The notes under the pieces: model-generated | What the model was told of the DNA's origin: nothing | Databases searched by the model: none | What the model saw: the letters and a program-made list of their open reading frames with translations, nothing else | Program-made: the position numbers and the translations under genes | Assembly (NCBI RefSeq): GCF_013374095.1 | Contig: NZ_AP022672.1 | Coordinates: forward strand, 682,001-746,000 | Source of the DNA: Sphingomonas sp. HMP6 | GTDB lineage: Bacteria > Pseudomonadota > Alphaproteobacteria > Sphingomonadales > Sphingomonadaceae | Direction: 5' to 3' | DNA: 64,000 nucleotides | Shown: one piece after another, positions 28,748-51,344 of the stretch | How positions within the stretch are numbered: the first letter of the stretch is position 1 | Layout: each line of letters starts with the position of its first letter

Positions 28748-28896
28748 GAAACGGCCCTTAAGGTCCAATTCCAGCCATCACAATGGCGGTGCGCTTCTCG
28801 ATCGCGGTTGCCCTGGGGCGGTCCGCTGGCGGAAAGATGCTTAACGCGGATAGCCTTGCTTGCCAGCGATTTGCGAATGTGAAAGGGCTAAACGTG

Positions 28897-29289
28897 ATGA
28901 ACGACGATCTGCCCGAAGCCCCGAATACGACCCGTCGCCGCGCGCTGATGCTCGGTGCCGTCGGGGCGGCGGCGGTCGTGTCGATCCGCCCAGCGTTGGC
29001 CGCGACCACGGCATCGATCTCGACGTGTGAAATCCCCGTTCCCGATCCGGGCCGCGCAGGCAGCTTCATCGCGCCAGACGGGACGACGGTGCCGAGCGGC
29101 ACGCAGGGCGCCTTCGCGCCGCCCAGCCGACCTTTCAAGGGTGAGGAAGTCCGCACGGCGCTTGCCGGTGGGCAATTGCCGGGGACGAGCTACGATCAGA
29201 GCCGCGCCTACACCAATTACATCCGACGCCTGCAATCGGGGACGAGCGGCTTCACCTGCTTTGCGTCGTTGCAAATGCCGCGCGGCTGA
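28897..29289 (+). CDS. Tat-exported two-cysteine protein, first gene of the HprK-like cassette
   Basis: A 130-residue protein beginning MNDDLPEAP. Its N-terminus has a twin-arginine-like signal, TTRRRALMLGAVGAAAVV with a cleavage site after ALA (residues 33-35). The mature part is polar and proline/glycine-rich with only two cysteines, Cys44 and Cys121, and ends SLQMPRG. No known domain is seen. It lies 37 bases before the PqqD-like gene and is read in the same direction, so it is probably part of that operon. A carrier or substrate for the following enzymes is possible but unproven. Confidence 0.7.
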   Translation: MNDDLPEAPNTTRRRALMLGAVGAAAVVSIRPALAATTASISTCEIPVPDPGRAGSFIAPDGTTVPSGTQGAFAPPSRPFKGEEVRTALAGGQLPGTSYDQSRAYTNYIRRLQSGTSGFTCFASLQMPRG

Positions 29290-29326
29290 TCCGGTGGAAG
29301 ATGCGGGCGGGGGGACCGTGTACCGC

Positions 29327-29581
29327 ATGGCACGACCCGAGACGCTGAAGATCGTGCATCTCGATAGTTTTACCGCCGTGTATCACCGCGCATCGGGCAT
29401 CACCCATCTCATCACGGCGCCTGCGCCTGAGATTCTGGCGACGCTGGGGGAGGCCGGCCTTTCCCGATCGGCGCTGCTTGCGCGGCTGGCGGTGGAGTAT
29501 GATCTTGGCGATGCCGATGAAGCGGCGTTGCTCGCCCGGCTTGATGAATTGGTCGCGACCGGCCTTGTGTCGACCGCATGA
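29327..29581 (+). CDS. PqqD-like protein of an HprK-related system
   Basis: An 84-residue protein, MARPETLKIVHLDSFTAVYH..., of the PqqD-like fold: a small winged domain that in RiPP systems binds leader peptides. The pattern YHRASGITHLI and LLARLAVEYDL...LLARLDELVATGLV matches the PqqD relatives found with HprK-like kinases. Its stop overlaps the next gene as ATGA. I chose ATG 29327; GTG at 29294 or 29318 is possible and would add 11 or 3 residues. The fold assignment is by pattern, so moderate. Confidence 0.75.
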   Translation: MARPETLKIVHLDSFTAVYHRASGITHLITAPAPEILATLGEAGLSRSALLARLAVEYDLGDADEAALLARLDELVATGLVSTA

Positions 29582-30438
29582 GGCATCACTTCGCCGTGCG
29601 GATCGGCCCGGTCGGGTTTCGCATCGGGTCTGACTGGCGCGCGCCGATCGCGCAGCTCGAAAGCCTCTATGCGGCCTATCCCAAGCCGTATGATGGCGTG
29701 CCCGATTTCACCGTGCGCCTTTTCGCCGCGCGGCCGTGGCGGCGCTTTGCGCGCGCAGCGGTGATGATCGGCGGCGATTACGTCCTGCCCGAAGCGGCCC
29801 CGTTGCCGCTCGCCCAAGGATTGCTCGCCGCCGAGATGGGCATGAATTTGCAAATGGCGCTGGGGCAGCGGCGATATCTGCTGCTGCATGCAGCGGTGGT
29901 CGAGCGTGACGGGCAGGCGCTGATCCTGACCGGCGTTTCGGGCGCGGGGAAATCGACGCTTGCCGCCCTGCTCAGCCTGCGCGGGTGGCGGCTGATGGGG
30001 GATGAATTCGCGCTGCTCGATCCCGAGACCGGTCTGATCCACGCCTTTCCGCGGCTGATCAGCTTGAAGAATGCGAGCATTGCCACGGTCGCGGCGGAGG
30101 TGCCCGAAGACCGCTTTGGCCCGCTGCTGGAGGGGACGCCCAAAGGCAGTATCCGGCATGTCGTGCCTGATGCGACAGCGGTGGCGGCGATGGACGCACC
30201 GGCGCGTCCCGCGCTGATCCTGTTCCCGAGCTTCGGCTTCGAGGCGGCGGCGCGCGATGTCTCACCGAGCGAAGTGTTCGTGCGGCTGACGCAAGCCTCG
30301 ACCAACTACGTCGCGATCGGCGAGCGCGGGTTCGATGCGCTGACGGCGCTTGTGAACAGCGTGCCGGCGCGCGCGGTTGACTATCCGGATACGGCGAGCG
30401 CCATCGCGCAAGTGGAGGCAGCATGGACCGCGCGCTAG
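29578..30438 (+). CDS. HprK-related kinase
   Basis: A 286-residue protein distantly related to the HPr kinase/phosphorylase C-terminal domain. The P-loop is GVSGAGKST (residues 119-127), followed by RGWRLMGDEFALLDP, which aligns with the metal-binding acidic segment of HprK. The HprK signature for HPr recognition and the usual hexameric N-domain are absent. Relatives of this type sit in lasso-peptide clusters and phosphorylate the peptide. It is translationally coupled to the PqqD-like gene and overlaps the nucleotidyltransferase gene by 16 bases. Confidence 0.85.
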   Translation: MRHHFAVRIGPVGFRIGSDWRAPIAQLESLYAAYPKPYDGVPDFTVRLFAARPWRRFARAAVMIGGDYVLPEAAPLPLAQGLLAAEMGMNLQMALGQRRYLLLHAAVVERDGQALILTGVSGAGKSTLAALLSLRGWRLMGDEFALLDPETGLIHAFPRLISLKNASIATVAAEVPEDRFGPLLEGTPKGSIRHVVPDATAVAAMDAPARPALILFPSFGFEAAARDVSPSEVFVRLTQASTNYVAIGERGFDALTALVNSVPARAVDYPDTASAIAQVEAAWTAR

Positions 30439-31484
30439 ACGGCTGGCTTCTTGCCGCTGCGCTGCGCGCTCCCGAGAGTGTGCGGACGCTCGATGCGGAC
30501 GGCTGGACGGCGCTGCTCGCGATCGCGCGGGCGGAGCAGATGATCGGGACGCTAGCGTGGCGGCTCGACGGCGTCGCGATGCCGCCGGGAGTCGCGCGCA
30601 TCCTCACCGATGCGCGGGCCTCGGCCGAACAGGGGCGCGTCATCGCATTGTGGGAGGCCGAGGCGGCGCGGCGGGCGCTTGCGCCGCTGGGCGTGCCCGT
30701 GGTGTTGCTGAAGGGGACGGCGTTCGTCGCGGCGGATTTGCACGCGGGCCAAGGGCGTTCGATCGGCGATCTCGACATCCTCGTGCCGCGTGAGACGCTC
30801 GGTGCGGTCGAGGCGGCGCTGCTCGGTGCGGGCTGGGAATGGGTCAAGCCCGATCCCTATGACGACGCTTACTACCGGCAATGGATGCACGAACTGCCCC
30901 CGCTGATCCACCGCGACCGCGACCGGATGATCGACGTGCACCATACGATCCTGCCGCGCACCGCGCGGATCACGCCCGATGCGGTGGCTTTGCTGTCAGA
31001 TGCCGTCGAGGTTGCGCCGGGGCTGTGGACGCTGTCGCCAGCCGACATGATCGTCCACGCCGCGGCGCATCTGTTTGCCGACGGGGATCTAGCGGGTGGG
31101 ATGCGCAATCTGTGGGATGTCGATCAGTTCTGCCGCGAATTTGCGTTAAATGATCGGCATTTTTGCCTGAGCGTCTATGAGCGGGCGTGGGAGCATGGAT
31201 TGTTGGCGGCAGTCAAGCGGGCGTTCCGCTTGTGTCATCAGCTCTACGGTACGCCAGTCGTCGGCTACACTACGCCAATAACGATCGATCTTTCTCCGCG
31301 TCTTTCGGACCGCGCCTATCTCCGCCGCGTAACCGCGCGCGACGGGTGGGGCAGGGCGACGCGACCTTTTACGCGCCAGGCCTTCTATATCCGCTCACAT
31401 TGGTTGCGGATGCCGCCGCCGATGCTCGCGCGGCATTTGTGGATCAAGTGGCGCCAGGGTGGCGCCGGGCCAGCGTCAGGCTGA
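30423..31484 (+). CDS. Nucleotidyltransferase-fold protein (NTP_transf_5 type)
   Basis: A 353-residue protein with the nucleotidyltransferase segment VVLLKGTAFVAADLHAGQGR followed by SIGDLDILV, where DLD provides the metal-binding acidic pair. The remainder is helical, with a HELPPLIHRDRD-type segment and MIDVHHTIL. This family accompanies HprK-like kinases and PqqD-like proteins in several peptide-modification clusters. It ends the four-gene cassette and overlaps the convergent gph by nine bases. What it transfers, and to what, cannot be read. Confidence 0.8.
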   Translation: MDRALDGWLLAAALRAPESVRTLDADGWTALLAIARAEQMIGTLAWRLDGVAMPPGVARILTDARASAEQGRVIALWEAEAARRALAPLGVPVVLLKGTAFVAADLHAGQGRSIGDLDILVPRETLGAVEAALLGAGWEWVKPDPYDDAYYRQWMHELPPLIHRDRDRMIDVHHTILPRTARITPDAVALLSDAVEVAPGLWTLSPADMIVHAAAHLFADGDLAGGMRNLWDVDQFCREFALNDRHFCLSVYERAWEHGLLAAVKRAFRLCHQLYGTPVVGYTTPITIDLSPRLSDRAYLRRVTARDGWGRATRPFTRQAFYIRSHWLRMPPPMLARHLWIKWRQGGAGPASG

Positions 31485-33604: not shown

Positions 33605-33973
33605 ATGACGCGCATTTTGGCTGATTTGCCCGATGAAGACATTAAGCGGCTCGATCAGATCGCTGCTGATCGCGGCACGTCGCGTGCCGCTGTGCTCCGC
33701 GAGGCAGTTTCGGTCTATAACCCGCAAGGGTCCGCATCTGACAAATTGGACTGGCTTGATGCTGGGTTCGGCGCTTGGAAGGATCGAACCGAGATTGGTG
33801 ACGCGGTCGAATGGCAACGTCGCGAGCGTGCGTCATCGACTCGGCCCTGGGATGACGATTACGAGTCGGTAAAGGCCGAATTTCCGGATCTGTTCGATGC
33901 TGAAGACGACCGGCAGCGTCAGATTTACCTCGATATGGTCGCGGGGAAATATCCCAAACCGCGCGGCGCCTGA
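33605..33973 (+). CDS. VapB-like antitoxin (ribbon-helix-helix)
   Basis: A 122-residue protein: the N-terminal ~40 residues (RILADLPDEDIKRLDQIAAD then RGTSRAAVLREAV) fit a ribbon-helix-helix DNA-binding domain; the remaining acidic region would neutralise the toxin. It is two bases upstream of the PIN-domain gene. It is longer than most VapB proteins (70-90 residues). Operator repeats lie directly upstream. Confidence 0.82.
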   Translation: MTRILADLPDEDIKRLDQIAADRGTSRAAVLREAVSVYNPQGSASDKLDWLDAGFGAWKDRTEIGDAVEWQRRERASSTRPWDDDYESVKAEFPDLFDAEDDRQRQIYLDMVAGKYPKPRGA

Positions 33974-33975
33974 TA

Positions 33976-34356
33976 ATGAACGGTTTTTCGTTCGATACGA
34001 ACATCATCATCGATGCACTGGCGGGCTACGACATGGCCAAGACTGAAATACTCCGTGCTGTGGAGCAGCATCGCCGGGTATGGACCAGCCGGATGGTGTG
34101 GGTCGAGGTCTTGTCGAAGGGTACGCCAACCATGCTTCGCAGCGCCGAGGCGTTTTTGTCGGGATTCAACGTGGATGAGATCGATGCCGAGATAGCCAGC
34201 ACGGCGGCCTCGTTGCGCCGCCAGCGCCCCCGCCTAAAGTCCCCCGATGCCATTATCCTCGCCACCGCGCAATTGCGCGGCCGTATCCTCGTCACGCGCA
34301 ATACCAAGGACTTTCCTGCCGAAATGCCGGGAATCCGTGTTCCTTACACCCTGTAG
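33976..34356 (+). CDS. VapC-type PIN-domain toxin ribonuclease
   Basis: A 126-residue PIN-domain protein. The acidic catalytic residues appear in FSFDTNIIIDALAG (Asp), VWVEVLSKG (Glu), SPDAIILATAQLRG (Asp) and LVTRNTKDF (Asp). Such toxins cleave tRNA or rRNA when not bound by antitoxin. It follows the antitoxin gene by two bases and sits 15 bases before glmS, so that this TA pair splits glmU from glmS. Confidence 0.88.
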   Translation: MNGFSFDTNIIIDALAGYDMAKTEILRAVEQHRRVWTSRMVWVEVLSKGTPTMLRSAEAFLSGFNVDEIDAEIASTAASLRRQRPRLKSPDAIILATAQLRGRILVTRNTKDFPAEMPGIRVPYTL

Positions 34357-49991: not shown

Positions 49992-51344
49992 ATGGCCGAC
50001 GATAGTGGGTTCTCCTTCACCTTCCCAGCCATTCGTGGTCGAAAAATCACCGCCGCGTTCGACGGCGGTCGGCTGACGTCGGACGGCGGCGTGCTACTGC
50101 TCGCACAGGCCGAGCGGCGGTTGGGGATCGCGGATCGGCTCGCCGCCTGCATCGCTGATCCGCGCGATCAGGGTCGGGTGATCCACCGGGTCGCCGACAT
50201 CTTGCGCGCCCGCATGCTCGCGATCTCGTGTGGGTATGAAGACGCCAATGATCTCGACGCCCTGCGGCATGATCCAGGGTTCAAGCTGGCGCTCGGCAAA
50301 CTGCCGGGTGATCCGTTCGGGCTGGCCAGCCAGCCGACGATGAGCCGGTGGGAAAACGCGCCGACTACGCGCGAGTTGATCCGTCTGACCGGTACGCTGG
50401 TCGACCTTTATTGCGCGAGCTACCCCGTGCCACCTGCGGCGGTGACGCTCGACATCGATGATACCGTCGACGTCGTACACGGCGCGCAGCAGCTCTCTTT
50501 CTGGAACGGCCACTACGGCGAGCGCTGCTTCCTGCCGATCCATGTCTACGACACCGCTACCGGGCGGCCGGTTGCGATGCTGCTGCGCACCGGCAAAACG
50601 CCGTCGGGCAAGGAAGTCGCCGGCCATGTTCGCCGGCTCGTGCGACGTATCCGTCGCCACTGGCCCGATACCCGGATCACGCTGCGCGGCGATGGTCATT
50701 ACGGTCGGCCAGAGCCGATGGCCTGGTGCGAGGCGAACGGAATCGACTACATCTTCGGGCTGCCCGGCAACCGCACGCTCCACGCCGATCCCGTCATCGT
50801 TCGGGAAGGCGATGCCTGCGCGACCGACCGGGCATTGCAGGGACTGGTCGAACTAAGGCGTTACGCAGAGACGCGCTACGCTGCGAAAACCTGGGGGAAT
50901 ACCGAACGTCGCGTCGTTGCTCGCATCGAGGCGAGCAGCCTCGGCCTCGACATCCGCCTCGTTGTCACCTCGCTTGCCGAGGGCAGCGCTGAACGGATCT
51001 ATGACACGCTTTACTGCGCCCGCGGCCAGGCGGAAAACTTGATCAAGCTGCATAAAACGCAGCTGAAGAGCGACCGAACCTCCTGCTGCTCGGCCAACGC
51101 CAATCAGATGCGGCTCATCCTTCACACCGCCGCCTACTGGCTGATGTGGGCCGTGCGGCACGCTATGCCCGCAACCGCCACGCTCCGCACCGCCGAGTTC
51201 GCGACCATCCGCCTGCGGCTGCTCAAGGTCGCCGCGCGCGTCGTCGAAACCACCAGCCGCATCCGCATCGCCTTCGCAAGCGCCTGTCCCGATGCCGCGC
51301 TGTTCCGATCCATCGCGCTCAACTTGCGCACCACGGGACCATGA
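49992..51344 (+). CDS. IS1380-family transposase
   Basis: A 450-residue DDE transposase. The catalytic residues fit LDIDDTVDVVHG (first Asp), LRGDGHY (second Asp) and RGQAENLIKLHK (Glu), which is the IS1380 arrangement. The N-terminus has AFDGGRLTSDGGVLLL, a family mark. There is no frameshift or stop. The GC content is like the chromosome, so the element is adapted to this genome or group. Confidence 0.92.
   Translation: MADDSGFSFTFPAIRGRKITAAFDGGRLTSDGGVLLLAQAERRLGIADRLAACIADPRDQGRVIHRVADILRARMLAISCGYEDANDLDALRHDPGFKLALGKLPGDPFGLASQPTMSRWENAPTTRELIRLTGTLVDLYCASYPVPPAAVTLDIDDTVDVVHGAQQLSFWNGHYGERCFLPIHVYDTATGRPVAMLLRTGKTPSGKEVAGHVRRLVRRIRRHWPDTRITLRGDGHYGRPEPMAWCEANGIDYIFGLPGNRTLHADPVIVREGDACATDRALQGLVELRRYAETRYAAKTWGNTERRVVARIEASSLGLDIRLVVTSLAEGSAERIYDTLYCARGQAENLIKLHKTQLKSDRTSCCSANANQMRLILHTAAYWLMWAVRHAMPATATLRTAEFATIRLRLLKVAARVVETTSRIRIAFASACPDAALFRSIALNLRTTGP

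Follow-up and report, generated by a model that had tools for sequence, protein, structure and literature searches.

A Tat-type exported protein as candidate precursor of the HPr-rel-A gene cassette in Sphingomonas sp. HMP6 and other Proteobacteria

What do a PqqD-like protein, an HprK-related kinase and a nucleotidyltransferase act on when their genes stand together behind a gene for a small exported protein? The question is raised by a four-gene cassette in a stretch of 64,000 nucleotides from Sphingomonas sp. HMP6 (contig NZ_AP022672.1, positions 682,001 to 746,000; the whole stretch is called the window below). We propose that the first gene of this cassette, an HPr-rel-A system, encodes the system's dedicated precursor, a protein with a signal of the twin-arginine translocation (Tat) type. 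We put the probability of this reading, in which the substrate role is what we infer, at about 0.62. The four genes are linked and co-occur genome by genome, the Tat-type protein keeps a conserved leader and a C-terminal box, and the two enzymes keep their catalytic residues.

A reading of the DNA letters without database searches (the sequence-only reading) had described four genes running in one direction, the last three coupled by overlaps. The frames, all on the + strand, and the overlaps were confirmed:

28897..29289, + strand: Tat-type exported protein of 130 amino acids, proposed precursor and substrate (the open frame might begin earlier, at 28783)
29318..29581 (GTG start) or 29327..29581 (ATG start), + strand: PqqD-like protein, HPr-rel-A system PqqD family peptide chaperone (TIGR04353)
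29578..30438, + strand: HprK-related kinase A (TIGR04352)
30423..31484, + strand: NTP_transf_5 nucleotidyltransferase (PF14907)

The PqqD and kinase genes overlap by 4 bases (ATGA) and the kinase and nucleotidyltransferase genes by 16 bases; between the Tat gene and the PqqD gene there is no overlap and a gap of 28 bases (GTG start) or 37 bases (ATG start). The family identities given in the sequence-only reading were borne out by curated models: TIGR04353 scores 57.8 bits on the PqqD-like protein (cut-off 35) and TIGR04352 scores 237.4 bits on the kinase (cut-off 200), both in NCBIfam, while the fourth product scores 160.1 bits with PF14907 of Pfam (cut-off 31.2). By profile, with kinase and PqqD-like protein above the curated cut-offs, the cassette is thus a member of the HPr-rel-A system. 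The terms 'orphan' and 'undescribed' used in the sequence-only reading have to be given up for the trio, since NCBIfam names the kinase and the PqqD-like protein and Pfam labels the nucleotidyltransferase (NTP_transf_5, 'uncharacterised nucleotidyltransferase'). The NCBIfam entries inspected name no substrate; full-text literature searches with the system name, the kinase name, the TIGR numbers and the enzyme combinations gave no paper on the trio, and a search for PF14907 gave none either. The new element is the Tat-type partner with its conserved C-terminal box, which has no model above cut-off in Pfam or NCBIfam.

To see how far the four genes form one set, as the sequence-only reading had it, we examined the best 80 of at least 235 confirmed kinase relatives from a kinase scan of GTDB contigs (Sphingomonas-type loci). 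A Tat homologue accompanies the kinase in 78 of the 80 loci, far from being absent from most trio loci; the PqqD gene is present in all 80 and the nucleotidyltransferase gene in 78, the contig stopping inside or shortly past the kinase gene in the other two. The distance from the end of the Tat gene to the kinase downstream is about 4 kb in L059 and 272–625 bases in the other 77 loci. As for the two loci without a Tat gene, the genome of L079 has one elsewhere, and none was found for L096. (The contig of L096 bears the title Nostoc sp. CHAB 5844 and that of L078 the title Bacillus sp. 2B10; both are Sphingomonas-type loci and probably come from mislabelled or contaminated assemblies.) Over best segments, identity to the window proteins is 56–98% (median 71) for the Tat protein, 36–92% (median 60) for PqqD, 67–97% (median 73) for the kinase and 61–79% (median 65) for the nucleotidyltransferase; the Tat protein is therefore more conserved than PqqD in these loci.

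The same pairing is seen across the order of the window, for which 246 genomes were searched with TIGR04352 and with the Tat profile A1; A1 contains proteins from three of these genomes (G000, G640 and G656) and, in addition, from named loci possibly conspecific with other genomes searched. In the family of the window, the 49 kinase-positive genomes are exactly the 49 that are Tat-positive at E ≤ 2e-7; the two weakest A1 matches, G851 (5e-4) and G960 (3e-4), have no kinase, and G745, from another family of the order, has both proteins. In 10 of the 49 genomes (G573, G626, G802, G819, G841, G889, G924, G937, G958 and G962) the Tat gene is kept although a distance of over 160 kb separates it from the kinase gene or the two are on different contigs. 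All six displaced Tat sites inspected have a phoR-like neighbour, 46–52% identical to that of the window, as at the usual Sphingomonas site, so it is the enzyme genes that moved (in G626 without PqqD) and the Tat gene that stayed. The remaining 57 kinase-positive genomes of the order belong to families beyond the reach of A1. Twenty loci (19 of the 57, and G745), hand-picked and spread over families, were inspected by eye with a looser rule and no control, and all have a Tat-type frame upstream.

The survey of the phylum covered 398 proteobacterial genomes, 61 with TIGR04352 above cut-off and 337 without. Regions were fetched for 51 of the 61 genomes, the other ten being judged by profile searches alone, and nine loci from a search with the PqqD model (13 genomes above cut-off) brought the number of loci to 60. 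When the 900 bases ahead of the kinase are screened with a fixed rule (twin arginines, a hydrophobic run, A-x-A and length), 48 of the 60 loci have a Tat-like frame, compared with 3/57, 2/56 and 3/52 at control positions; four further frames recognised by eye (L151, L171, L184 and L191) make it 52. Six of the eight remaining loci also lack PqqD in place. The Tat and PqqD genes stand side by side elsewhere than the kinase in G401, G441, G491 and G626; they stand side by side in G501 as well, divergent and beside the kinase, and in G452 the Tat gene is on a separate contig, with no PqqD detected beside it. Of the other two loci, that of G573 has PqqD in place and its Tat gene far off, and no Tat gene was found by eye or with profile A2 on the 4.5-kb contig of G007.

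Taken by genome, the Tat gene is present in 60 of the 61 kinase-positive genomes: in 38 by profile A2, in 11 by A1 (G000, G012, G573, G582, G588, G600, G640, G656, G682, G698 and G726) and in 11 by position and motif only (G396, G399, G625, G628, G650, G658, G671, G690, G692, G697 and G721, the frames of G396 and G671 being recognised by eye). Only in G549 was none found, a genome of 57% completeness to which just the profile searches were applied. At E ≤ 1e-5, A2 matched none of the 337 genomes without an above-cut-off kinase. Because the 23 Tat proteins that make up A2, out of the 52 from the phylum loci, all come from genomes among the 61, the count was repeated without the 23 source genomes: A2 then matches 15 of 375 genomes, each of them one of the 38 kinase genomes that remain (hypergeometric 7e-17, a figure that ignores relatedness).

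Which parts of the Tat protein are kept? Two stretches stand out:

28936..29001, + strand: twin-arginine signal region R14 to A35, RRRALMLGAVGAAAVVSIRPALA, putative leader to be bound by the PqqD-like protein (conservation in A1)
29254..29268, + strand: [ST]-C-x-x-S box, T120-C121-F122-A123-S124, with Ser124 as proposed modification site (conservation)

Signals of Tat substrates consist of twin arginines, a hydrophobic stretch and A-x-A ahead of the mature part, and the sequence and the alignments show all three traits. R14, R15, L17, G20 and S29–A35 are invariant in A1, while C44, T120, C121 and S124 are invariant in profiles A1 and A3; C44 and C121 are the only cysteines of the window protein, which was correctly credited with two in the sequence-only reading. 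Across 79 aligned Sphingomonas-type Tat proteins the signal region and the C-terminal end (SGFTCFASLQMPRG) are nearly unchanged. The 52 Tat proteins outside the Sphingomonas type have an N-terminal pattern of about RRxLLKGxxxxxPxVxTLxSGxAxA, often followed by Ser and Cys. In the 23 of them that make up A2, the invariant positions are R39, R40, K44, P51, T55, C71 and C90, and further G137, G151, C171, W172 and S174; we take R39, R40 and K44 to agree with the Tat consensus. Throughout the alignments the signal region is constant and the mature part variable. The C-terminal box is present in 79/79 Sphingomonas-type Tat proteins and in 37/52 elsewhere, against 6/468 control open reading frames encoding 150–300 residues (last 35 residues). 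It is also present in all six displaced Tat proteins of the phylum set (G401, G441, G452, G491, G501 and G626) and, by eye and with no control, in 20 of the 20 order loci, lying forty residues from the end in L213.

Of 7999 proteins scored in a database search with the Tat protein, 4115 are relatives at E ≤ 0.001. The best 120 listed carry hypothetical or uncharacterized as their source name, apart from P0016, called 'gluconate 2-dehydrogenase subunit' by one source, a label that we did not adopt because no such Pfam family matched. Ten other Tat proteins likewise have no Pfam or NCBIfam family above cut-off. A second class of Tat proteins lacks the C-terminal box (L145, L147, L148, L162, L175, L184, L186, L188, L190, L191, L202 and L203), and by eye several members share an AAxLNA-like stretch along with GYW or SPGWW. 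The four of them that were scanned (L148, L186, L191 and L202) matched no family in Pfam or NCBIfam. Directly before the Tat gene, at 28877–28894 of the window, an alignment of 40 Sphingomonas loci, every other one of the set, shows a conserved stretch with a consensus of about TTTACGATTGCGAAAG. At two loci (L207:3465-4873 and L221:4240-5829) two tandem Tat-type proteins, both with a CxxS box, precede one enzyme set. A constant leader, a variable remainder and such tandem pairs are features as in precursor families, a resemblance that would suit the proposed role.

The kinase and the nucleotidyltransferase look active, judging from the conservation of their catalytic stretches:

29887..30006, + strand: kinase catalytic stretch with H104, the Walker A motif GVSGAGKST (29932–29958) and D142-E143
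30753..30776, + strand: nucleotidyltransferase active-site stretch G111–D118 (GRSIGDLD), with D116 and D118

The P-loop GVSGAGKST noted in the sequence-only reading is there, at kinase residues 119–127, and the kinase has its ATP-binding residues: H104, K125, D142 and E143 are present in all 141 aligned sequences. The closest solved structures to the kinase are HPr kinases (E 0.0034). In the nucleotidyltransferase, D116 and D118 are kept in 99% of 127 sequences. Its structure model (pLDDT 89.8) has nucleotidyltransferases as top fold neighbours, the first being ANT(2'')-Ia with probability 1.00 and an E-value of 0.035, none being better. By sequence, no convincing solved relative was found for the nucleotidyltransferase (three matches, E 0.72–0.78) or for the PqqD-like protein (one match, E 4.1).

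The nearest parallel is the linear polyphosphorylated peptides (LPP) of Bacillota (PMC13381572). Their clusters comprise a discrete RRE, an HprK-like kinase, an NTP transferase, a SipW-like peptidase and an MsbA-like transporter; they were first encountered in capsule loci, and LppK adds several phosphates to core Ser3. The cassette has in common with them the RRE (in the cassette by its PqqD family name), the HprK-like kinase, the NTP transferase and a precursor or partner with constant N-terminus and variable remainder, and in many lineages HPr-rel-A loci, like LPP loci (PMC13381572), lie within polysaccharide gene clusters. The LPP leader as given there, YxxPxVLxHQxIxFETxxS, is however absent from the Tat protein and from its 79-protein alignment, the cassette having a twin-arginine signal instead. 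No SipW-like peptidase or MsbA-like exporter was recognised near the cassette by eye, no profile search having been made. The main text of the LPP paper does not contain the words Proteobacteria, Pseudomonadota, PqqD, Tat pathway, Sphingomon, Gram-negative or twin-arginine (PMC13381572).

Kinase-bearing lasso clusters such as those of paeninodin and pseudomycoidin offer a second parallel, with an HprK-like kinase, a nucleotidyltransferase and a PqqD-like B1 protein, the two enzymes having a Ser in a gene-encoded peptide as their target. PadeK, ThcoK and SyanK phosphorylate the C-terminal Ser of lasso precursors (PMC9266682); PsmK phosphorylates Ser likewise, and the addition of one or two hexoses to the phosphorylated residue requires PsmN, although it is left open in that review whether PsmN instead transfers a nucleotide, a host enzyme then adding the sugar. 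A secretion signal within the precursor and a co-encoded RRE, as proposed here, are found in the DUF2063/DUF2282 peptides, which differ from the cassette in having a Sec-type signal and other enzymes (PMC12710340).

We propose the Tat protein as precursor because the same three enzyme types occur in LPP, because it is a partner with constant N-terminus, and because the twin-arginine signal would replace peptidase and exporter. By analogy, the cassette would work like LPP without its leader motif and, by eye, without its peptidase and exporter, and not like a lasso cluster. The PqqD-like protein would bind the conserved N-terminal signal, or leader, of the newly made Tat protein. The kinase would then add one or more phosphates to a serine that is conserved, Ser124 of the box being the likeliest and a Ser near the mature N-terminus the alternative, a step suggested by analogy with PadeK, PsmK and LppK. 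The NTP_transf_5 enzyme would attach a nucleotide or a sugar to the phosphate, as is thought for PsmN. Finally, the protein would leave by the Tat pathway, its signal would be cleaved, and the two conserved cysteines could pair outside. We know of no earlier case of a Tat signal serving as recognition leader; if true, this would be the first.

The surroundings of the set bear on its function. A homologue of an XrtA/PEP-CTERM exopolysaccharide gene was found near the set in 39 of 55 loci outside Sphingomonadales (fetched stretches; homology at E ≤ 1e-25 to seven query proteins, chosen from loci where such genes had already been recognised), and all ten neighbour proteins checked against NCBIfam are of the XrtA/PEP-CTERM type. 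In Sphingomonas the set lies between phoR/pstS and gph/glmU, with phoR in 65, pstS in 59, gph in 54 and glmU in 59 of 69 full-length loci. Regulation of the cassette by phosphate was considered and rejected, Pho boxes in the window being not above chance (3 matches vs 2.97 expected) and none lying at the Tat gene. Because the set lies in exopolysaccharide loci in many lineages, its product is probably a cell-surface or matrix phosphoprotein or phosphoglycoprotein. More tentatively, and with the odds somewhat against it in this full form, HPr-rel-A may be a proteobacterial system of exported-protein modification in which the Tat signal doubles as a leader read by the PqqD-like protein, the box receives phosphate and then a nucleotide or sugar before export from the cytoplasm, and the phosphoglycoprotein, once exported by Tat, works in, or anchors, an XrtA-type exopolysaccharide matrix. 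If so, modification by kinase and nucleotidyltransferase would reach beyond Bacillota and lasso peptides to proteins exported by Tat across Proteobacteria, in a pathway tied to exopolysaccharide loci. A dedicated exported partner with a five-residue box makes the missing substrate of HPr-rel-A testable.

Several observations weigh against the Tat protein as precursor. Kinship of the genomes inflates every co-occurrence figure, and in G573 a distance of 163 kb separates the Tat gene from the kinase gene, beside which PqqD is still found. Fifteen of the 52 Tat proteins elsewhere lack the C-terminal box, though six of these carry C-x-x-S directly after the signal. The Sphingomonas profile and that of the other Tat proteins are joined over about 40 N-terminal columns only (hhalign probability 74.9), so common descent of the whole protein does not follow. 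No curated Tat-signal model of NCBIfam is above cut-off for the window protein or for ten others, with a match below threshold among those ten for L186 alone (14.8 bits, cut-off 16.7). The structure model of the Tat protein is weak (pLDDT 66.9, residues 1–39 below 50) and has no PDB fold match at E ≤ 0.001. XrtA-type neighbours are scarce in Sphingomonadales (4 of 25 loci). In the kinase, E143 is Glu where the aligned HPr kinase residue is Asp, and since lasso kinases are described with a His-Lys-Asp-Asp set (PMC9266682), the last catalytic residue differs from theirs as well. For LppN, no effect could be seen in the host used for the test (PMC13381572).

Among other explanations, the one that survives best, unlikely as we consider it, takes the Tat protein for a periplasmic partner, such as a receptor or carrier of the product, which is itself unmodified, the substrate being a polysaccharide or a small metabolite. 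Co-occurrence fits a partner and a substrate equally, NTP_transf_5 enzymes resemble small-molecule enzymes such as ANT(2'')-Ia, and the exopolysaccharide neighbours would suit a polysaccharide substrate. Yet a PqqD-type protein is by family a peptide binder, the five-residue box and the leader are kept while the rest of the Tat protein drifts, and the same enzyme set phosphorylates peptides elsewhere.

Much less probable is that the cassette assists, or is left over from, a pathway for lasso or other short peptides whose short precursor is unlinked. The enzyme types are the same, and the genome does have, about 275 kb from the cassette, a separate lasso-like cluster (L251:4561-10643, about 431.6–437.6 kb of contig C1 of G000) with genes for an Asn synthetase, PqqD, a sulfotransferase, a kinase-like protein, a transglutaminase-core (B2-like) protein and a PF14907 enzyme, and, at L251:8714-8860 on the − strand, a precursor-like frame of 48 amino acids with W-x-x-P-x-I and a Ser at its end. 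This cluster has a full set of its own, however; the kinases of the two clusters are not significantly similar (E 0.49) and their nucleotidyltransferases are 23% identical, while the Tat protein is a constant companion of the cassette. As the sequence-only reading had noted, the frames around the cassette contain, by eye, no lasso enzymes, that is, no cyclase and no B2 protease, nor a short precursor, and an identity as lasso or split-lasso cluster was rejected. The unlinked peptide which that reading had offered beside the exported protein is unnecessary to explain the set, and the Tat protein stands as the best substrate candidate of the two. A further region (L252:565-13279, about 569.6–582.3 kb of the same contig) has an Asn synthetase-like protein, PqqD and two weak HPr-kinase-like proteins.

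Least probable of all is a signalling module in which an HPr-like carrier or another cytoplasmic protein receives phosphate from the kinase, the Tat protein serving as sensor: phoR and pstS beside the set in Sphingomonas would fit it, but the exopolysaccharide loci of other lineages, the Pho-box count given above and the PqqD-type protein, which suggests peptide work, speak against it.

Two minor observations concern the rest of the window. In the glmU–glmS interval, at 33605–34356, two small frames resemble, by eye, a ribbon-helix-helix antitoxin and a PIN-domain toxin. The frame at 49992–51344 and that at L252:16662-17000 have the same N-terminal protein sequence and are probably two copies of a transposase gene.

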